Shown: positions 17,572 through 61,590 of the stretch, in pieces | How positions within the stretch are numbered: position 1 is the first letter of the stretch | How the letters are laid out: each line of letters starts with the position of its first letter | Virus record (IMG/VR): IMGVR_UViG_3300032053_000072 | Location: 1 to 61,590 of that record | DNA from: a virus | Length of the DNA stretch: 61,590 nucleotides | Direction: 5' to 3' (one strand) | Translations under genes and position numbers: made by a program | Notes under the pieces: generated by a model | What the model saw: only the letters and a program-made list of their open reading frames with translations | The model's database searches: none | What the model was told of the DNA's origin: nothing

Positions 17572-18318
17572 CTAGAAGCTCCGCAACCGTTCCTCAAAAA
17601 TCATCCCACCAGCGGAAATGCTGACCGGCTTTTCTTTCGCCATGTCCGCCTTCGCCTTTTCGTATGTCGCCCTGGTGATCTTCTGTTCTCCGCAGTGCGG
17701 AGACTCCAGGCCGAAATCGCAGAAATGCGGGATGCCGCTCCTGTAGCACGAAAGGCCAAAGTAGATGTCTTCGCCCGGCTGCGTGTCGAAGGCTGGGTTG
17801 TAGACCAGCCGGAACCAGGGCCAGACGAGCTTACTCTCCTGCAACTTGGTGAACACCCATCGTTGAATCGCAATCGCCCCAGTCCCAACCATAGTGCACT
17901 GCACCAGGCCAGCGGACGCGGGCAGGCTGCTAATGTCCATATTGGTGAAGCCGTCCTCTACCTTGACGAAGACGCAGGGATCGTATGGGTGGCTGCGGCG
18001 GAAACACAGAGCCCCAACCACGCCAACGTTGTGCACTACCAGCCGCTCGATGATGTCACATGGGTGATCGTGGTCGGCATCAAGCATTACCAGCGTGTCC
18101 TTCGGGTTGCGACTGTATTCCATGAACAGGCGGCTGATCTTGTTCCTGGCGTCGTCAGTTCGTGTCGGATCTATCGACAGGTGCCGGTAGTCGCGGATGC
18201 CCGAACGGATGGCCACCGATAGGAAGTTATTGAACGCGGAGCCGCTGCCAGCGCCAGTACGCTCCGGTAAAGCGGCCCACCAGACTGTCTTACCGGCATC
18301 ACCGACGACGGCATTCAT
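17572..18318 (-). CDS. Glycosyltransferase (GT-A type)
   Basis: 248 aa. The ATG at 18318 overlaps the stop of the fused enzyme upstream (ATGA). DTLVMLDADHDHP near residue 80 is a DxD metal/nucleotide-sugar motif, preceded by an N-terminal Rossmann-like part, with GEDIYFGLSCYRSG further on, like the acceptor-side ED motif of GT-A enzymes. It should transfer a sugar from a nucleotide donor in the cytoplasm. Lodged in the structural operon next to another sugar-modifying enzyme, it probably decorates virion proteins, or host surface glycans in a lysogen. Confidence 0.7.
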   Translation of the reverse strand: MNAVVGDAGKTVWWAALPERTGAGSGSAFNNFLSVAIRSGIRDYRHLSIDPTRTDDARNKISRLFMEYSRNPKDTLVMLDADHDHPCDIIERLVVHNVGVVGALCFRRSHPYDPCVFVKVEDGFTNMDISSLPASAGLVQCTMVGTGAIAIQRWVFTKLQESKLVWPWFRLVYNPAFDTQPGEDIYFGLSCYRSGIPHFCDFGLESPHCGEQKITRATYEKAKADMAKEKPVSISAGGMIFEERLRSF

Positions 18319-20300
18319 GCGGCCGTACACAGCGGCAGGTGTATCCGCTCGTCGTTCCTGGCCAACTTCAGACTGTAAGCGTCGGTAAGCGACCCATCGG
18401 TAGAGATGCCCCACTTCTGACTAAACAACTGCCAGTTCTTCTCCATGCTGGCTTTGAAGTCAATGCCCAACCGCTCGAATGTGGCTTGGCCGACGTGGTG
18501 AATGAAGACGTCCTGGGCCACGGCACAGTGCCAGCCAGCCGCGGCGGCACGGATACAGTAGTCGTCATCGTCATAGTTCCCCAGACCGTACCTGGTATCC
18601 AGGGCCCCGACCGCATCTAGCACCTGCCGTCGCATCAAGAGGCAAAACCCGACCAGGCGCGGATAGGCTGTCACCTGGCCGGCGTGATCGGCAGCCCAGG
18701 CGTCCGCGAAGGCATCGAAGGATGCAGCATCCTTATAGGCGGCGGCCGTTTGCTGAGGACCACTAACGTTGTTGCTCATTGGCCCGACCAGGCCGACTTT
18801 CCCATGGCGACGCAACACGCTTATCATCCGCCCTAACCAGCCGCGCGATACAACTGTATCGTCATTGAGGATGCAGACGTATTTGCCGCTCGTGTTCCTG
18901 AGTCCCAGGTTCGTACCAACGGCAAACCCCCAATTTTCCGGGCAAGACAAGTGCACGATCTTCCCGTCCTCGGCCAACTTGCCGAGCCAGGCCGTCATCA
19001 ATTCGCCGCTACCGTTGTTCACCACATACACCTGGTGTCGCTCAGGTGTGTTGTTTGCAATGCTGTGCAGGCATGACTCGAGTTGCTCGCGGCCGTCCTT
19101 TGTGAGAATGACGATATCAGTCAGCGGCTCCTCACACTGCCGCAGCAGCCTGGCCGGCACACCCACCACCGTGGCACATCGAGGCACGTCGTGTGTTACG
19201 ACGGACCCAGCCCCGATTATGGCGTCGTCGCCGATCTTCACGCCTGGCAGGATGACGACGCCCTCGCCAATGAATACGTGATTGCCGATCTCCACCGAAC
19301 GGACAGTCAGCGCTTGCCCATGCAACTCACGCATTACGTCATACCCATGCTGGTGATCGGCAATCGTCACGTGCCCGGCGATGATGCAGTCCCTGCCAAT
19401 GCTGACCCTTTGGGCACAGCCAATGTGCAGGAACAACTCGGCGGATGTGCGCTCGCCGATAGTCAGCAGCGGTTCGTACTTCACTCCAGCGTACTCTGTG
19501 ATGCACTCAATCCGAGCCCCAAAGCCAATCACAGACTGCGCCCCAAGCTCGAAGCACTGCGGATTCGTCAGCATCAAAGGCTGGATGATCCTACACCCCT
19601 GACCCATGCGCTTGAGTTTCGGGCCGCTCGCGCTGGCCCTTTTTTCCTCATCGGCGGTATTGCCCAAGAAGGTCTTGATCCGGGTCAAGATCATCTTCCT
19701 GTGGTCGTCGGTCGCATACTTGAAAGCGAAAAAGGCGTGGAAGCCCTCATAGTGAAAATTCTGCAAGACCATCGTGTCGTAACCCAGCGCCTTGAACTCA
19801 TCCGGCGTCCAACGACTGCGGTGGTCGTGCAGCTCGCGCTGCCCATGCGGGTGAAGCGCCAAACCTTGCTCGCGGAAAATCTTGAACTTCTCCGTCGCAA
19901 TAAGGTCGTCCGTTTCCCAGGGCACCAACAGGATGATCTCGCGGTCGGCTATCTTCTCGACTTCTTGCAGCAGCCTCAGTGAGTCCTCTTTCGGAAGGTG
20001 CTCAATCACGTCGAAGATCGTCACTGTATCCCAAGTACGGTTCCCTGCTGCCGCCTCTGGCACGAACTCGCGGAGATCCCGCTCGTGTACCTCGGCGAAA
20101 CCCTGCTCCCGCAACTTCACCACCGACGGAGCGAACAACTCGACGCAGGTAATCCTCTCATGGGGGAAACCTCTCAGCGTCCGCCCGTCGTTGCTCCCCA
20201 AGTCGAGATGCTTCCCGCTGTCCAACGCATAGAACAACGCTTGCAAGCTCAGCGGATTCTGTGCTTGCTCAAGGGCTGCCTTGCGTTCGTTCCAGAACAT
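18315..20300 (-). CDS. Triple fusion: methyltransferase, hexapeptide acyltransferase, GT2 glycosyltransferase
   Basis: 661 aa. (1) Residues about 25-215: SAM methyltransferase with motif I HLDLGSNDGRTL and DVIEHLPKE. (2) About 235-392: left-handed beta-helix O-acyltransferase with isoleucine-glycine hexapeptide turns (VSIGRDCIIAGHVTIADH, VEIGNHVFIGEG, GAGSVVTHDVP, VVGVPARLL). (3) About 397-650: GT2 glycosyltransferase (DIVILTKDGREQLESCL, CILNDDTVVSRGWL with the donor-binding NDD). All three steps modify sugars. The gene is in frame throughout and starts at the ATG that overlaps the upstream stop. An unusual fusion for a phage head operon; virion glycan synthesis is inferred. Confidence 0.8.
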   Translation of the reverse strand: MFWNERKAALEQAQNPLSLQALFYALDSGKHLDLGSNDGRTLRGFPHERITCVELFAPSVVKLREQGFAEVHERDLREFVPEAAAGNRTWDTVTIFDVIEHLPKEDSLRLLQEVEKIADREIILLVPWETDDLIATEKFKIFREQGLALHPHGQRELHDHRSRWTPDEFKALGYDTMVLQNFHYEGFHAFFAFKYATDDHRKMILTRIKTFLGNTADEEKRASASGPKLKRMGQGCRIIQPLMLTNPQCFELGAQSVIGFGARIECITEYAGVKYEPLLTIGERTSAELFLHIGCAQRVSIGRDCIIAGHVTIADHQHGYDVMRELHGQALTVRSVEIGNHVFIGEGVVILPGVKIGDDAIIGAGSVVTHDVPRCATVVGVPARLLRQCEEPLTDIVILTKDGREQLESCLHSIANNTPERHQVYVVNNGSGELMTAWLGKLAEDGKIVHLSCPENWGFAVGTNLGLRNTSGKYVCILNDDTVVSRGWLGRMISVLRRHGKVGLVGPMSNNVSGPQQTAAAYKDAASFDAFADAWAADHAGQVTAYPRLVGFCLLMRRQVLDAVGALDTRYGLGNYDDDDYCIRAAAAGWHCAVAQDVFIHHVGQATFERLGIDFKASMEKNWQLFSQKWGISTDGSLTDAYSLKLARNDERIHLPLCTAA

Positions 20301-45064: not shown

Positions 45065-46060
45065 TCATGTTTCCGTCACACCAAATCGCAACAGATAGCG
45101 TGGATCACTGATCGTCATCTTCATCGGACTGGCACAGTACCGACAGTTATAGGACGGCTCTCCACATAGCATCCTCCTCATCGCTTGTATCTTTTCTCCA
45201 TTCCAAATCTCCGCCATCGTCTCCCGACGGAGATCGCCCAGGATAACGCTGTCTACAAAGTCCATGCAGCAGGCACCAACGCGGCCATCGGCATAGACGT
45301 AGAGGTGGTTGAATGGATAGGTGCAGTAAGGGGACTTGACTGTAGGAACCAAAGGTCGGGAGAAGAGCCCAGGGGACATGAAAAGGATGCCTTTCTCTTG
45401 GCAGAATTGCGCCGCCCTCTTGAACATCTGATCCGACAGTTCCTGGTGATAGTAAAGACTCTCTTGGCGATCTGCCTCGCGGTAGATGATGTTGTGATAG
45501 GCAATCACAGATGAGATGTGGTAATGGTCAGCCAAACGCATCACGTCAGGTAACTCGGTGATATTCCTCACCGAGGCACCAAAGTTCAGGCAAAGCAACG
45601 GCAAGGTGGAGTTGTGCCATGCCTTGGCTCCCGTTAGGAATTGCAGGGCACTCTCCAGCGTTTCTAGGGTACCGCCGCGCCGAATAACGCTGTAACCATC
45701 AGTGGCATCGCAGGAAAACGAGAGCGAGTGTAGACCACCTTCAACCATCGCCTCGGCTAGGTCTGGAGTCATCAATTGCAGGTTGGTTGTGGTATGGGCT
45801 TTCGCCCCAGCGATAACAACGTCGCGCATGAAGGTTAGGAAATGTGGACTCATGAGAGGCTCGCCGATACCCACGAGGTAGACGTTTTCAAGTTGACCGA
45901 GGTAGGGTTTGATTTTGGCATTCCACAAGTCTGGCACCATTATGGCGCTGATGTGACCGGGCAATTTGTTGAAGCACTGTGCACAACTGAGATTGCAGAT
46001 GCTAGAAACCTCAACTTGCAGACTGTGCAACTTGTGGAACGGGAGCATTTGGTCGGTCAT
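45065..46060 (-). CDS. Radical SAM protein with SPASM-like C-terminus
   Basis: 331 aa. CNLSCAQCFN near residues 22-31 is the CxxxCxxC [4Fe-4S] site, followed by VYLVGIGEPLMSP (SAM-binding GGE-like strand). The C-terminal region YCTYPFNHLYVYADGRVGACC, written in part, with ILGDL and NCRYCAS gives the extra cysteines of a SPASM/twitch auxiliary cluster. Such enzymes modify peptides, sugars or nucleotides. Substrate unknown; adjacency to the cytosine methyltransferase makes DNA or RNA worth testing. Start chosen after a weak GAGCC site. Confidence 0.75.
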   Translation of the reverse strand: MTDQMLPFHKLHSLQVEVSSICNLSCAQCFNKLPGHISAIMVPDLWNAKIKPYLGQLENVYLVGIGEPLMSPHFLTFMRDVVIAGAKAHTTTNLQLMTPDLAEAMVEGGLHSLSFSCDATDGYSVIRRGGTLETLESALQFLTGAKAWHNSTLPLLCLNFGASVRNITELPDVMRLADHYHISSVIAYHNIIYREADRQESLYYHQELSDQMFKRAAQFCQEKGILFMSPGLFSRPLVPTVKSPYCTYPFNHLYVYADGRVGACCMDFVDSVILGDLRRETMAEIWNGEKIQAMRRMLCGEPSYNCRYCASPMKMTISDPRYLLRFGVTET

Positions 46061-46106
46061 GTGGCTCACGTCCGCGCCTCGCGCTCCGGCTGCCTCGACG
46101 TGGTGT

Positions 46107-46346
46107 TCATTCTGGCGTCGGCTGGGCCGGCGGAGAGATTTGCTCGAATGTGAATCCCGTACTTCTGCAAGCGACGCATTCCACATCGCTAGTCTCGTTG
46201 TAGGGATACCCCCATTGCTGCCGCCGATATCGGAAGTGGCCGGTTCCTCCACAGCGATCACAGAGTACCGGTTTCAATGCTTCGTTTTTCATGTTGGCTA
46301 GAAACTCGCGCTCCATCACACCTAATCTCGTCTTAGTTTCATCCAT
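46107..46346 (-). CDS. Small DnaJ-type zinc-finger protein
   Basis: 79 aa after AAAGGAG. CDRCGGTGHFRYRR and CVACRSTGFTFE form the CxxCxGxG pairs of DnaJ-like zinc fingers. Immediately upstream of the radical SAM gene. Unknown partner. Confidence 0.6.
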   Translation of the reverse strand: MDETKTRLGVMEREFLANMKNEALKPVLCDRCGGTGHFRYRRQQWGYPYNETSDVECVACRSTGFTFEQISPPAQPTPE

Positions 46347-54251: not shown

Positions 54252-54667
54252 GCTGGTGCCTCTGCTGTCGCAAACAGGCCAACTGGTAAGGTGCGGCCAC
54301 GAATCCGGTAGAGTAGCCTTACCCATTCCCGTTCATTGAGTCTTGTCGGCTCTTTTACGTAGAGGTGTGCAGCCAAATTCAGGGGCGTCACCCGCCACCA
54401 ACTGAAGTCGCCGGCATAACGGACGGCGAAGACAGGGATGGTTGCGCGGCTACCTAGATCGGCCAATGCTCGGTAGGAAGGATGGGATGGTCTTTGCGGC
54501 GCGGCACTCTCGTGTTTGTACTCTACGAGCGCCATGACTTGGGCATGGTCATACTCGACCAGCACGAAATCCAGATCCACAGCCGGACAGTCCAGGCCCC
54601 AGTAACCATGCCAGTCACTCAGCGCAGCGTCACGCCAACCCGTTCGTTCCGTTCTCGCGTTCCGCAT
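54248..54667 (-). CDS. PD-(D/E)XK nuclease-like protein
   Basis: 139 aa. Start overlaps the methyltransferase stop (TGATG). DLDFVLVEYD followed by VMALVEYKHE gives the D ... ExK core of PD-(D/E)XK nucleases, with a helix and strands (IPVFAVRYAGDFSWWRV) behind it. Translational coupling to a ParB-methyltransferase suggests a paired function: a restriction-type partner, or a nuclease for recombination with the RecT-like protein. No target-recognition domain is visible. Confidence 0.6.
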   Translation of the reverse strand: MRNARTERTGWRDAALSDWHGYWGLDCPAVDLDFVLVEYDHAQVMALVEYKHESAAPQRPSHPSYRALADLGSRATIPVFAVRYAGDFSWWRVTPLNLAAHLYVKEPTRLNEREWVRLLYRIRGRTLPVGLFATAEAPA

Positions 54668-55875
54668 CAAGCCATCTCCGCCAACCGTGCGCGCGTGGTT
54701 GCTATCGCTTGCGGGTCTAGGTCTATTCCTAGGAACCGCCTGCCGAGCGCGGATGCCACAACGGCAGTCGTACCACCACCCAGGAATGGATCGCAGATGA
54801 GTTCGCCTGGCTGGCTGAATCGCTCCATCAGGTCGGCAATGCCGCTCTCGCTCTGGCCCCAATCGTGGTGTTCTTTGTCGGGCCGTTGCGACTTCGTCAC
54901 GTCCCACATCCATTCGCCAGCATATTCACCATTCGTGAACCAGAGTACCGGCTTCCACCCTGTCATTACGTGCCGTTGCCATAGTTGGAGCGTCGCGCCC
55001 GGCGTCAGATAGGCGAGCGTCCAATGATAACGAAGGTGCGGCACCATCAGCGCTAAGACTTCCGGCAGGTAGGACTGGCCCACCATGACCAACGCTGAGC
55101 CACCGGGCTTGAGCCATTCGGCGGCGCGGCGCGCTAGGGTCTTGTAAAGTGGCAGGTACTCGCGGGGGTATGGTGGGTCGGTGAGAATGAGGTCTATGGT
55201 AGCCGGGTCGATTGTCACGTCGGCTATGTCCGCTGTCAGGAGCCGGTAGGAATTGGCCTCTGCGGGCGCCGGCATCCTAGCAGCGCGTTCCAGCTCTCGT
55301 CCCCGGCGTTTCATTGCCTTATAGGCGTCATGGACATTGTCGGTGGCGTCCATTTGCTCAGCGATGGCGGCATAGGCATCGGGCTCGCGCTCAGCCGCCT
55401 CTACCACGGCGCGCGCCTTGGTGTAGGTAGGCCGCGACATGCCGACGGCGGCGGCGACTTTCGCTAACGTTTCGCCTTTCTCTGGCTCCGAAAATTTTTC
55501 GGAGCCAGTCTGACGGTTGCCTTGCGTAGCAGCCATGCGACTAGCCGCCGCCTTTTCCTCCATCGGCTCCAGCGTCCGGCCGATGGCGACCGCCTCGGTC
55601 GGTGTGAAGTCCTTGCGGCACACGTTCTCCGCTCGCTCGCCACGGGCGATAGATGTCAAATCTATGATTGTGGCTGCTATCTCACTCCAACCTAGGAGGC
55701 TGCAAGCGGCCAGACGGCGCTCTCCGGCGATGAGCGTGCCATCTGGCCGCACGACGATAGGATGCAGCAACCCCACCTCAGTGATGCTTTTCGCAAGGCC
55801 GGCCACATCGCCGAGGTCTGTACGGTGCCGATCACTGATGCGAACGTCAGCCAGTCTGAGTATTGTGGCCGTCAC
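54667..55875 (-). CDS. ParB-domain / DNA methyltransferase fusion
   Basis: 402 aa from GTG in GTGA overlap after GGAGG. Residues about 5-95: ParB-like domain (DVAGLAKSITEVGLLHPIVV, DGTLIAGERRLAACSLLGW). About 95-200: helix-turn-helix region (LAKVAAAVGMSRPTYTKARA). About 215-402: N4/N6 methyltransferase with DLILTDPPYPREY and DPFLGGGTTAVVASALGRRF. This fusion is well known in phages. It may methylate phage DNA to avoid restriction. First large gene of the early operon. Confidence 0.88.
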   Translation of the reverse strand: MTATILRLADVRISDRHRTDLGDVAGLAKSITEVGLLHPIVVRPDGTLIAGERRLAACSLLGWSEIAATIIDLTSIARGERAENVCRKDFTPTEAVAIGRTLEPMEEKAAASRMAATQGNRQTGSEKFSEPEKGETLAKVAAAVGMSRPTYTKARAVVEAAEREPDAYAAIAEQMDATDNVHDAYKAMKRRGRELERAARMPAPAEANSYRLLTADIADVTIDPATIDLILTDPPYPREYLPLYKTLARRAAEWLKPGGSALVMVGQSYLPEVLALMVPHLRYHWTLAYLTPGATLQLWQRHVMTGWKPVLWFTNGEYAGEWMWDVTKSQRPDKEHHDWGQSESGIADLMERFSQPGELICDPFLGGGTTAVVASALGRRFLGIDLDPQAIATTRARLAEMA

Positions 55876-56219
55876 GCCAGCGCCTCCTTTATGGGCACGC
55901 AAGGCATACATGCCTTTGCGCCGGCGTCGCGTGCGTCTGGTGGCTCGCCAGGGGCATTAGGGAGCATGGCGGCGTCACGCGCCTGGGACGTTCTGGCCTT
56001 CTTCTGGGACACGCAAGGCACAAACATGCCATTGAGCTCGTCACCCAACATGTCGGCCAGCCGGAAGGTAAGCAGTGCGACAGCCGCCTCGGTCACTGGG
56101 TAGTCGCCATCGCGCAGGCGCCGCAAGTGACGGACGGAGTAGCCCGTAAGCATGGCAAGATTGTCGAGGCCGAGTTGCCTTTTCTTGGCCCACTCAAACA
56201 ACTGGGTTTGGTATCTCAT
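55872..56219 (-). CDS. Cro-like helix-turn-helix protein
   Basis: 115 aa. An N-terminal HTH (QLGLDNLAMLTGYSVRHLRR, LRDGDYPVTEAAVALL) is followed by a low-complexity linker and a Cys-containing tail (CVSQKK, CMPCVP). First gene of the leftward early operon, opposite the repressor, as cro is opposite cI. GAGCGATG gives a weak ribosome site. Confidence 0.65.
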   Translation of the reverse strand: MRYQTQLFEWAKKRQLGLDNLAMLTGYSVRHLRRLRDGDYPVTEAAVALLTFRLADMLGDELNGMFVPCVSQKKARTSQARDAAMLPNAPGEPPDARDAGAKACMPCVPIKEALA

Positions 56220-56314: not shown

Positions 56315-56341
56315 GTCCGCAGATGAGTTTTGGAGTTGACT

Positions 56342-56683
56342 ATGGCAAAAGCGCAAGAGGAATACGCAGGCACGCCGCTGGCGCAATGGCTCGTCGGCCA
56401 ACTAGCGAAGCGGCACATGACAGCACGCGAGGTAGCATTGAAGGCGGGGCTTGGCCATGGGACGATCTACCGTTATCTCGCAGGTGGTCAGGCTGCGCCG
56501 CCGAAATGTAAACAATTGGCGGCATTCTTCGGCGTACCGGATGAGCAGGTCCTATACCTGGCGGGGCATATTGACCCGCCCCCCGATCACGACCTCTTTA
56601 CGAGGCAGGTGGGGACCCTGGCAAGAGATTGGCCACCAGATCGGAAACGTCGCTTTCTGAAGCTGGCGGAGAGCTTTGAATGA
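56342..56683 (+). CDS. XRE-family HTH repressor (CI-like)
   Basis: 113 aa from the ATG after GGAG; a TTG at 56330 is in frame. HTH at about 18-50 (LAKRHMTAREVALKAGLGHG, TIYRYLAGG). The C-terminal 50 residues are acidic and helical with no LexA-type peptidase, so induction would not be by self-cleavage. Divergent from the Cro-like gene and upstream of the integrase, it is the likely immunity repressor. Confidence 0.75.
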   Translation: MAKAQEEYAGTPLAQWLVGQLAKRHMTAREVALKAGLGHGTIYRYLAGGQAAPPKCKQLAAFFGVPDEQVLYLAGHIDPPPDHDLFTRQVGTLARDWPPDRKRRFLKLAESFE

Positions 56684-56786: not shown

Positions 56787-56919
56787 GACTCATTCCCCTC
56801 CCGGAGGGATCGAACGTTTGTGCTAGTAGTATACACCCATTCTGGCCGCATTGCTACGGTTTCGCGCATTTGGTTGGCCTACGAGATGCAGTTGACATAG
56901 CAACCGTGACGCTCTCATG

Positions 56920-56960
56920 AGGCGCCGTCAATGGCGCGTTGGTACTGGGGAGGTGGAGGA
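56920..56960 (+). repeat. Upstream repeat shared by the two membrane genes, copy 1
   Basis: About 40 bases (tgaggcgccgtcaatggcgc, then gttggtactggggaggtgg) recur at 57728-57768 with few changes, ending in the ribosome site. An in-frame ATG inside it could extend both proteins by MARxYWGGG, but the better-placed starts lie after the Shine-Dalgarno. Probably the remains of a gene duplication. Confidence 0.6.
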
Positions 56961-57680
56961 ATGACTGAGCCCGACGCAACCAAGATATGTGTATTCTGTG
57001 CCGAGGCGATCAAAGCCGCAGCAGTCGTTTGCCCTCACTGCGGCCGTTGGGTTGGGCTGCCGATGCACTCACGCGAGTCTCTCTTCCGCAAATTGATCAT
57101 TCCAGGCATTGCCCTGCTGATTGTCGTCACGGTGGGTGGTGGGCTCGGCTTCACAGTATTGCATGCCAGACAGCAACGCGATCTTCAGCCCCTACAGAGT
57201 AGAGAGACAACCGTCTCGCCTGATGCCGCAGTCCTAGCAGACAGACCGCTGCCGCCAACGGCCACCATGACATCAAAGACCATGGACTTCGCGGACCCGT
57301 CAGACGCGGCTCTCGCTTACTTTAGGCGTCTACAGCCCTACCTGGATAACTTCAGAAAAGCTTTCGTGCAGTTATCGGCTCTATCTGAGCGCCCACAGCC
57401 TGCCTCAAGCGAGTGGAAGGCTGACCTTATGACTGTGGTGCTCACAATACGTCGTAATCACGAAGCACTGCTGCAAATGCAGGATGTGCCACTGGAAGTG
57501 ATGTACATCCACGAGTTGCTGCTCGCCGCAACCGCTGACTACAACGAAGCAGCCTATTACATTGAAAGCGGAGTGGCAATGAACTCTGCACCGGATCTCG
57601 TGCGGGCAACTGAGTTGATAACAAGTGGCACAACAAAGATAACCCACATCACAGAATTGCTCCCTGCCTTAGAGCCCTGA
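56961..57680 (+). CDS. Zinc-ribbon single-span membrane protein, paralogue 1
   Basis: 239 aa from the ATG after GGAGGTGGAGG. Residues 9-27 are a zinc ribbon (CVFCAEAIKAAAVVCPHCGR). A membrane span at about 42-62 (IIPGIALLIVVTVGGGLGF) follows, with the ribbon probably cytoplasmic and the helical C-terminal 160 residues outside. Its layout, and its upstream DNA, match the next gene. Between repressor and integrase, the place of lysogenic-conversion and exclusion genes. Confidence 0.7.
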   Translation: MTEPDATKICVFCAEAIKAAAVVCPHCGRWVGLPMHSRESLFRKLIIPGIALLIVVTVGGGLGFTVLHARQQRDLQPLQSRETTVSPDAAVLADRPLPPTATMTSKTMDFADPSDAALAYFRRLQPYLDNFRKAFVQLSALSERPQPASSEWKADLMTVVLTIRRNHEALLQMQDVPLEVMYIHELLLAATADYNEAAYYIESGVAMNSAPDLVRATELITSGTTKITHITELLPALEP

Positions 57681-57727
57681 TTGCCTACACTAAGGAAAGT
57701 GGCTTTAGGAAGCGTGAGAGGGCAGTG

Positions 57728-57768
57728 AGGTGCCCGCAATGGCGCGATCGTACTGGGGAGGTGGGGAA
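57728..57768 (+). repeat. Upstream repeat shared by the two membrane genes, copy 2
   Basis: Counterpart of 56920-56960 (tgaggtgcccgcaatggcgc, then gatcgtactggggaggtgg). It keeps the ribosome site better than the surrounding sequence, so it may have regulatory value. Confidence 0.6.
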
Positions 57769-58398
57769 GTGGCGGAGTTGGAAGCGAAACCTCATTGCGA
57801 GCATTGCCATGCAGAGTTGCCCCCGGCAGGGCTTGTATGTCCTCAGTGCGGTCGTCCTCAGTATGCGCAGCCAACCAAGCGCGTAACCAAGTATCTCTCA
57901 GACCGCACGATCATATCGCTGCTCATACCCATCTCCATTGTCGGTTTCATCCTGGTGGCGCTACTGAGCAAGAGCAACCCGCCAGTCCAGTCCGCCTCGA
58001 GTGGCGGAAGCGGCAAAAGTTCCTATGCCCAAGAGATGCGGACGCCGATGGGTAACTTAGGATTGTGGATTCCACATTTGCGGTCTTTTCTGGAGGAGTC
58101 CGCTAAGGGCAACCCCATAGTCTACTGGTGCAATACGAAGGGGTATGCCCAGGTCTCTTCCGAGGGAAGCCAGATCGTCCGCCAATTGGGCCAGATTACC
58201 CCACCTTCAGACCTGGCTACTGCTCATGGCGGGCTTCAAGCGAGTATCCGCTCTGTTCTTGGCTCCATGGCCGCGGCTGAGGTGGACCTTTGCATCAATG
58301 GCGATATCCCCGCAGCGACAACCCGCATGGATGAAATCACCGTTGGTGTGCGCGGCATGACCAGTTGGCTGCAAGTCATGACCGAGAAGATGCAGTAG
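57769..58398 (+). CDS. Zinc-ribbon single-span membrane protein, paralogue 2
   Basis: 209 aa from a GTG after GGAGGTGGGG. Zinc ribbon CEHCHAELPPAGLVCPQCGR (7-26), span at about 45-65 (IISLLIPISIVGFILVALLS), then a Ser/Gly linker and a helical outer domain with two Cys (YWCNTKGYAQ, DLCINGD) that might form a disulfide. Same design as paralogue 1 with weak similarity in the outer domain. Followed by the integrase. Confidence 0.7.
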   Translation: MAELEAKPHCEHCHAELPPAGLVCPQCGRPQYAQPTKRVTKYLSDRTIISLLIPISIVGFILVALLSKSNPPVQSASSGGSGKSSYAQEMRTPMGNLGLWIPHLRSFLEESAKGNPIVYWCNTKGYAQVSSEGSQIVRQLGQITPPSDLATAHGGLQASIRSVLGSMAAAEVDLCINGDIPAATTRMDEITVGVRGMTSWLQVMTEKMQ

Positions 58399-58412: not shown

Positions 58413-59891
58413 ATGCCGCGCCGCCGCAACTCCCGCTCCGCTCGCGCGACCGTCCGGCCCCTGCAGGCCGGTGACGAGGTGTGGGCATACCTGCGCGTCT
58501 CGACTGGCAAGCAGGCGGAGGCCGGTTTGCCCATTAACGGTCAGCGCGAGGCCATCGAGGCATACTGCCAGGCGCGTGCCTATCGTCTGACGCGCACCTA
58601 CTCTGACGAGGGTATCTCCGGCACGACCGATCACCGTGCCCAGTTCCAGACGATGGTCGATGAGGCACAAGCGTTGCGCCCGCGCGCCATCATCCTCTGG
58701 TCGTGGTCGCGTTTCAGCCGGGACCAGAACGACGCTGCATTCTACAAGGCGCTCTTGCGCCGGCATGGTGTGGATCTGCTCACGGTGGAGGATGAGGTGC
58801 CCAACGTCGAGGGGTTCGGCAACATCCTGGAGGCTCTGATCCACTGGCGAGACGAGCGGGAGAACGTGGCACGTGGCCAGGCCACCAAACGCGGCCATCA
58901 TGCCCTGGCGCATCTGGGCTACCACCCCGCCGGCAATGGCAACTGCCCCGTCGGCTACCGGGCCGCCACGGTGCTGGTGACGATAGCCGGCAGAGAGGGT
59001 GAGCGCCGGCGCATTGAACTCGACCCCGCCCTGGCCCCGATGGTGCGCCGCGCCTATGAGATGCGCTTGGCCGGCGGCAACTTCGAGGCGATCAACGAGG
59101 CCTGCCAACTCTTTGCCCACCCCAACGACCTCGGTGCCATGTTCCGCAACCCGACCTACCATGGCCGTTACCACTGGGGGGACACCGAGGTAGCCGTGCC
59201 GGCCATCGTCACTGAAGCCGAATGGCAGCGGGTGTACGACGGGCTCTCACGGGGCCGCGGCGGCGCCTACTCGCGCACCAGGGCCAGCGACTACCTCCTC
59301 AGTGGCCTCGTCTGGTGCGGTGTCTGTGGTGCGCGGATGAAGGGCCACTCTTGCTCACCCCGGGGCCGGCGCTGGCACTACTACCGCTGTTTCACGCCTG
59401 ACTGCATCATCCGCGGCATACCACGAGCGGAGCTCGAGGCGGCGGTGACGGAGCGCCTGATCACCCGCTACCTGACGCCACGTCTGGTGGCTGATATGGA
59501 GGAACGGGCGCGCCAGCATCAGCAGGACAGCGGCCAGCAGGAGCGGATCGCGGCACTGCGAGCCGAGGTGCGGCTGCACGACAAGGCGATCACTAACCTG
59601 GTTAGTGCTCTGGAGAGAGCGCCCGATACGCGCGAGTTGACTGAGCGCCTGCGACAGCGCGGCCAGGAGCGCGGGCGCCTACTCTCCAAGATCGCGGCGC
59701 TGGAACATTCCGTTCCCACCGTGCCGAGTGTCGAGGACGTGCTGGGGTTGCGGGAGCGGCTCAAGCAGGCGCTCGTGGACGGGGAGCGGCGCCTTGCCCG
59801 CGAGTTGATCCGGCAGTGTGTCGAGCGGGTCACGGTTGAGGGGTCGCGTGAATGGCGGGTCAAGTGGCGCCTACTCGTTTGTCCACGGTAG
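58413..59891 (+). CDS. int: Large serine recombinase (integrase)
   Basis: 492 aa from the ATG after AGGAG. N-terminal resolvase domain with VWAYLRVSTGKQ (catalytic Ser30) and ILWSWSRFSRDQND. The recombinase domain spans about 180-290 (MRLAGGNFEAINEACQL, FRNPTYHGRY). The zinc ribbon CGVCGARMKGHSC ... YYRCFTPDC lies at about 312-340, and a C-terminal coiled coil follows. It catalyses attP x attB integration without host factors. Gene complete; the attP site is not identified but should be close to it. Confidence 0.92.
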   Translation: MPRRRNSRSARATVRPLQAGDEVWAYLRVSTGKQAEAGLPINGQREAIEAYCQARAYRLTRTYSDEGISGTTDHRAQFQTMVDEAQALRPRAIILWSWSRFSRDQNDAAFYKALLRRHGVDLLTVEDEVPNVEGFGNILEALIHWRDERENVARGQATKRGHHALAHLGYHPAGNGNCPVGYRAATVLVTIAGREGERRRIELDPALAPMVRRAYEMRLAGGNFEAINEACQLFAHPNDLGAMFRNPTYHGRYHWGDTEVAVPAIVTEAEWQRVYDGLSRGRGGAYSRTRASDYLLSGLVWCGVCGARMKGHSCSPRGRRWHYYRCFTPDCIIRGIPRAELEAAVTERLITRYLTPRLVADMEERARQHQQDSGQQERIAALRAEVRLHDKAITNLVSALERAPDTRELTERLRQRGQERGRLLSKIAALEHSVPTVPSVEDVLGLRERLKQALVDGERRLARELIRQCVERVTVEGSREWRVKWRLLVCPR

Positions 59892-59926: not shown

Positions 59927-59955
59927 GGGGCCCCGGTGGTGAGCCGGGGCCTGGG
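59927..59955 (-). repeat. Stem-loop element, copy D (end of accessory operon)
   Basis: GGCCCCGG (59929-59936), loop TGGTGAG, CCGGGGCC (59944-59951). Same core as copies at 60296, 60707 and 1, but lacking the downstream ribosome-site part. Placed between the convergent integrase and accessory operons, it probably acts as a terminator. Confidence 0.65.
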
Positions 59956-60290: not shown

Positions 60291-60340
60291 ATTCTGGTTG
60301 GCCCCGGTGGTGAGCCGGGGCCTGGGTGCGTGGGGTGGGA
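60291..60340 (-). repeat. Stem-loop plus start-site element, copy A
   Basis: On the minus strand: GC hairpin (60300-60307 with 60315-60322, loop of 7), then CCAGAATGAGGAGGCAGA leading to the GTG of the next gene. Nearly identical to copy B (60702-60752) and similar to copy C across the contig junction. Confidence 0.75.
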
Positions 60341-60701: not shown

Positions 60702-60752
60702 ATTCTGGTTGGCCCCGGTAGTAAGCCGGGGCCCTGGGTGCGTGGGATGGGC
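60702..60752 (-). repeat. Stem-loop plus start-site element, copy B
   Basis: GGCCCCGG (60711-60718), loop TAGTAAG, CCGGGGCC (60726-60733) and the same GAGGAGGCAGA ribosome-site part. Two loop bases differ from copy A while the stem is kept. Confidence 0.75.
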
Positions 60753-61463: not shown

Positions 61464-61590
61464 GGTTGGCCCCGGTGGTGAGCCGGGGTCTGAGTGCGTG
61501 GGGAGCGGTTGGGCTAGGGAGTCACCCCCGCCTTCCGGCATAGGCGCCGATACTCGTCTTTTACTGTCTGGGGTAGGCCACCTTGCCTCT
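61464..61590. repeat. Terminal direct repeat, right copy; includes stem-loop copy C
   Basis: Identical to 1-127. The stem-loop GCCCCGG/CCGGGGT-type element (copy C) begins here at 61464 and equals bases 1-41. Bases 61514-61590 repeat the 3' end of the ribbon-helix-helix gene at 51-494. Confidence 0.9.

Follow-up and report, generated by a model that had tools for sequence, protein, structure and literature searches.

Two tandem plus-strand genes, located between a candidate repressor gene and a serine integrase gene, encode proteins of a common build, with an N-terminal zinc ribbon, one membrane span and an outer domain. The best explanation, adopted tentatively and at slightly less than an even chance, is that the pair are membrane-anchored exclusion proteins expressed in the lysogen. 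By analogy, they would act as Ltp does while standing outside the Ltp family.

The window, which is the whole stretch of DNA analysed, comprises the 61,590 bases of a virus record. Its first and last 127 bases (positions 1-127 and 61464-61590) are identical, forming a 127-bp terminal repeat, so the phage genome is probably circular and complete. The minus strand carries the structural genes, including those for the portal, terminase, protease and tail. The lysogeny module consists of a small minus-strand gene, the HTH_3 gene, gene 1, gene 2 and the serine integrase gene, the last four being on the plus strand (Table 1). The HTH_3 and phrog_95 matches of the two flanking proteins confirm the initial annotation, which had placed the pair between a repressor and an integrase. 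The divergent small protein has no match in Pfam or PHROG. A near-consensus promoter (TTGACA-17-TATACT, 11/12) is present on the minus strand at 56298-56270, upstream of the divergent gene. A sigma-70-like promoter was also looked for on the plus strand, and none was found.

Table 1. Features of the lysogeny module
Feature	Position	Strand	Content
Divergent small protein	55872..56219	-	possibly Cro-like, judged from the sequence
Repressor candidate, HTH_3 / Cro-CI type, upstream of the pair	56333..56683	+	domain match
Shared leader, copy 1	56918..56969	+	holds SD GGAGGTGG and start ATG 56961
Gene 1 (P0001), 249 aa	56931..57680	+	zinc ribbon, one span, predicted four-helix-bundle outer domain; alternative start 56961
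Shared leader, copy 2	57726..57777	+	holds SD GGAGGTGG and start GTG 57769
Gene 2 (P0002), 219 aa	57739..58398	+	zinc ribbon, one span, outer domain; alternative start 57769
Serine integrase	58413..59891	+	Resolvase, Recombinase, zinc beta ribbon; phrog_95 E=2e-75

In both P0001 and P0002, an N-terminal ribbon of the CxxC...CxxC type, with cysteines at residues 20, 23, 34 and 37, is followed by a single hydrophobic span (residues ~55-73 in gene 1 and ~58-76 in gene 2). The Pfam zinc-ribbon matches are below the curated cut-offs, the best E-values being 0.0038 and 0.0015, respectively. The two proteins are homologous over residues 1-39, with 49% identity (E=2e-10). A 219-aa ORF appeared in 7 of 300 shuffled sequences. 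Either ORF singly could arise by chance, but a homologous pair could not, and the two genes are real. The ORFs, cysteines, spans and local homology confirm the earlier description of two plus-strand genes with a common zinc ribbon and one span. In gene 2, more basic residues precede the span than follow it, and the outer part contains two cysteines, at 131 and 185, that could form a disulfide. Both features would fit a C-terminus located outside the membrane.

The genes also have upstream DNA in common, as had been noted at a length of about 40 bp; the repeat is 52 nt long and 81% identical. Its 27-nt core, with 3 free bases, is confined to these two places in the window and is absent from shuffles. 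The DNA identity between the genes is 84% in the leader, 41% in codons 11-19 and 53% in the ribbon codons. Two starts compete in each gene: ATG 56961 and ATG 56931 in gene 1, and GTG 57769 and ATG 57739 in gene 2. The downstream start is the likelier one in each case because the strong SD GGAGGTGG directly precedes both. With the downstream starts, the best-kept part of the genes is a translation leader, whereas with the upstream starts it is a peptide, MARxYWGGG, and the sequence is compatible with either. A conserved hairpin in the leader was considered and rejected, its folding energies being no better than those of shuffles (z between -1.5 and +1.0). A pattern search for the shared leader in other viruses found none.

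The similarity of the two proteins does not extend past the ribbon, where no homology is detectable above shuffles. When the outer domains are compared, 697 to 807 of 1000 shuffles score equally well. Thus the shared ancestry implied by calling these domains diverged is not established, and they may instead be unrelated domains on a common anchor, which fits the sequences at least as well as diverged copies do. The outer domains had been described as helical, and this holds for gene 1, where a single-sequence fold prediction gives a four-helix bundle with a mean pLDDT of 80 and a pTM of 0.72. It does not carry over to gene 2, for which the prediction (pLDDT 40) gave no reliable model and is uninterpretable. 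In a fold search, the predicted gene 1 domain gave nothing stronger than a viral match at E=4e-3 and a PDB match at E=0.085; with matches this weak, it is described as only a generic four-helix bundle. A sequence search of solved structures returned no match. For both outer domains, comparison with Ltp, Sie and the defence families gave no match, no PADLOC defence-protein model matches P0001 or P0002, and no DNA-binding or signalling domain was found in either protein with Pfam and PHROG. Comparison with the outer domains of the proteins discussed below gave nothing clearly above shuffles; the best score came from gene 1 and the first protein of a tandem pair in a gut phage contig (L029), and 28 of 300 shuffles scored as high.

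The initial annotation knew of no described phage system with such a form. However, the same build occupies the same slot in other phages, so the form is already known. What remains of interest is the tandem arrangement, in which leader and anchor are kept while the two outer domains belong to no known family. The closest described case is Ruminococcus phage phiRg507T2_3 (MT980837.1), in which an HTH regulator, gp22 and the integrase lie on one strand. Gp22, like the window pair, consists of a zinc ribbon, one span and an outer domain, but it is a single gene, its outer domain is made of two Ltp repeats (PF07553, E=9.6e-51), and the integrase is a tyrosine integrase. Gp22 is annotated in the record as a superinfection exclusion protein. 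This annotation was assigned by the domain IPR011434 and not by a test of the gene, and the authors explain the immunity that they measured by the repressor (PMC10072058).

There are further cases in other phages. The serine-integrase sample consisted of 16 records, hand-picked from a ranking, and provides examples and not frequencies; an artificial consensus of the ribbon and span served as a search probe for locating records only. Near-identical ribbon-span-Ltp proteins are encoded in IMG/VR contigs L053 and L054, with a serine integrase downstream. In L057, L058 and L060, among others, an Ltp protein with no detected ribbon lies between a repressor-like gene and the integrase, and Streptococcus phages Javan88 and Javan210, which have a serine integrase, carry plain Ltp proteins between the repressor and the integrase. 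Two other phages have a ribbon and span followed by DUF4352. In Dulem virus 35 such a protein is encoded between the repressor and the integrase, whereas in MT837225.1 it directly follows an HTH regulator, with a serine integrase farther on. These proteins share with the window pair the build and the place downstream of the repressor, and differ in being single copies with a DUF4352 outer domain.

Another tandem pair is in the gut phage contig MT836154.1 (L029 3986-4624 and 4575-5234). The ribbon and span of its two proteins are similar with a score of 170, which none of 500 shuffles reaches, but past this region the similarity score is reached by 65 of 500. The pattern is the same as in the window, with a common ribbon and outer parts that, by sequence, are not clearly alike. 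Nevertheless, the outer domains of the MT836154.1 pair are others, the pair has no annotation, and the 31-kb record contains no resolvase-type integrase.

The slot between repressor and integrase proves little about function when taken alone because serine-integrase phages hold many other genes there, for example those for a metalloprotease and a PH-domain protein, a PemK-domain protein, or a methyltransferase. Roseburia phage Shimadzu (L033 3861-4448) has a DUF4236 and TM2 membrane protein between its repressor and integrase.

The superinfection-exclusion lipoprotein Ltp of TP-J34 is the product of a lysogeny-module gene that the prophage transcribes; from its tether on the outer side of the membrane, it blocks the injection of DNA (PMC3952083). 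The window pair resembles it in its lysogeny-module position, between the HTH_3 protein and the serine integrase, and in having an outer domain that is presumably outside the cytoplasmic membrane. Unlike Ltp, which has a lipid anchor, the window proteins have a ribbon and a span, and the ribbon cysteines are the only ones before or in the span, leaving none for a lipobox. Furthermore, PF07553 is absent from both P0001 and P0002 at E<=1. The pair may work in the way Ltp does, but it is kept out of the Ltp family because this defining domain is absent.

If the pair serves exclusion, both genes would belong to the lysogeny module as accessory genes and be expressed from the prophage. The zinc ribbon and span would anchor each protein in the cytoplasmic membrane, and the C-terminal domain, on the outer side, would interfere with DNA entry of other phages, as Ltp does. 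The tandem copies, with a common anchor and translation leader and different outer domains, would then block different incoming phages. The position of the pair on the integrase strand between repressor and integrase argues for such a function, as does the recurrence of the build and slot in other phages, in one case (phiRg507T2_3) with an Ltp domain. The failure to match any Ltp, Sie or defence family and to find a sigma-70-like promoter on the plus strand, the existence of chromosomal ribbon-span proteins and the varied contents of the slot argue against it, as do the domain-based annotation of gp22 and the attribution of the observed immunity to the repressor. The superinfection-exclusion proposal of the initial annotation has thus gained from the other phages, above all from gp22 with its Ltp repeats, and has gained nothing from the outer domains of the pair itself, which match no family.

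No close relatives of gene 1 turned up in viral_contigs or genome_contigs by pattern-based search, and none of gene 2 in viral_contigs. No related phages were found via the integrase or the ParB-methyltransferase, and two short contigs were found via the terminase. Terminase relatives at 62% in one MAG and at 44% in an Anaerolineae MAG are too weak for naming a host. In 400 genomes from the phylum of the Anaerolineae MAG, ribbon matches alone were found, on many different bodies, some of them also with a span and an outer domain. Because chromosomal proteins of this phylum carry the ribbon, some with a span, the build is not special to phages, and the ribbon alone is uninformative on function. 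The role of cytoplasmic sensor that had been given to the ribbon can only be inferred; in other proteins it resembles a general-purpose anchor for many outer domains.

These chromosomal proteins are in line with the idea that the pair are generic ribbon-membrane accessory genes captured from a host, with an unrelated role in the lysogen or no selected one. The G+C content of the pair (0.55-0.58), which is below that of the genome (0.60) and of the integrase (0.67), and the failure to find relatives of the pair in viral contigs agree with such an origin. Capture of this kind is unlikely, however, given that both tandem ORFs are intact, that their leader and ribbon are strongly kept, and that the build recurs in the lysogeny modules of other phages. 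Rather unlikely, too, are lysogenic-conversion proteins that alter or sense the host envelope (in stress or antibiotic response, or adhesion) to the benefit of the lysogen, with the four-helix domain of gene 1 as a ligand sensor. This domain weakly resembles the four-helix ligand-binding domains of chemoreceptors (PcaY_PP, TM 0.65, E 0.3), the ribbon and span of gene 2 are faintly similar to TcaA (E 0.11), and host chromosomes also carry ribbon-span proteins with a DUF4352-like domain. Yet none of the matches is significant, the ribbon is the only possible output domain, and comparison with other phages puts an Ltp domain in this build and slot. The gene order of repressor, pair and integrase, with 14 nt from the end of gene 2 to the integrase gene, would also suit membrane-bound regulators of the lysogeny switch, in which contact of the ribbon with the repressor or integrase would pass on a signal from outside. 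Such regulators are very unlikely: this analysis found no precedent for them, the ribbon is present on many unrelated proteins, and neither P0001 nor P0002 has a DNA-binding or signalling domain.

The exclusion function, if correct, can be extended by analogy, doubtfully, to a modular phage exclusion family in which the outer domains on one ribbon-span anchor are exchangeable and include Ltp repeats, DUF4352, a four-helix bundle and others. Its members would sometimes form a tandem pair with different specificities and would lie in the lysogeny module in phages of distant hosts. The common membrane anchor would then be a platform on which phages swap different exclusion domains, and the outer domains without a family in the repressor-integrase slot would be candidates for undescribed exclusion mechanisms. 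More such genes could be sought by looking for a ribbon and span between repressor and integrase. If the pair does not act in exclusion, the two genes are ordinary prophage accessory genes.

Several other features of the genome were observed, all of them on the minus strand or beside its genes. One 414-aa protein (54667-55911) combines a ParB_N domain with an N6/N4 DNA methyltransferase. A 661-aa protein (18315-20300) has a C-terminal half that is glycosyltransferase-like according to PHROG matches, and a 398-aa protein (45065-46261) has radical SAM PHROG matches. A 23-nt inverted repeat, GGCCCCGGTGGTGAGCCGGGGCC, is present in four copies (59929-59951, 60300-60322, 60711-60733 and 61468-61490) with 0-2 mismatches, where 0 copies are expected in shuffles. 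The copies lie beside short minus-strand genes, and at two sites the repeat is accompanied by a common SD stretch. The arrangement is reminiscent of the start-associated sequences in cluster K mycobacteriophages, which contain inverted repeats.
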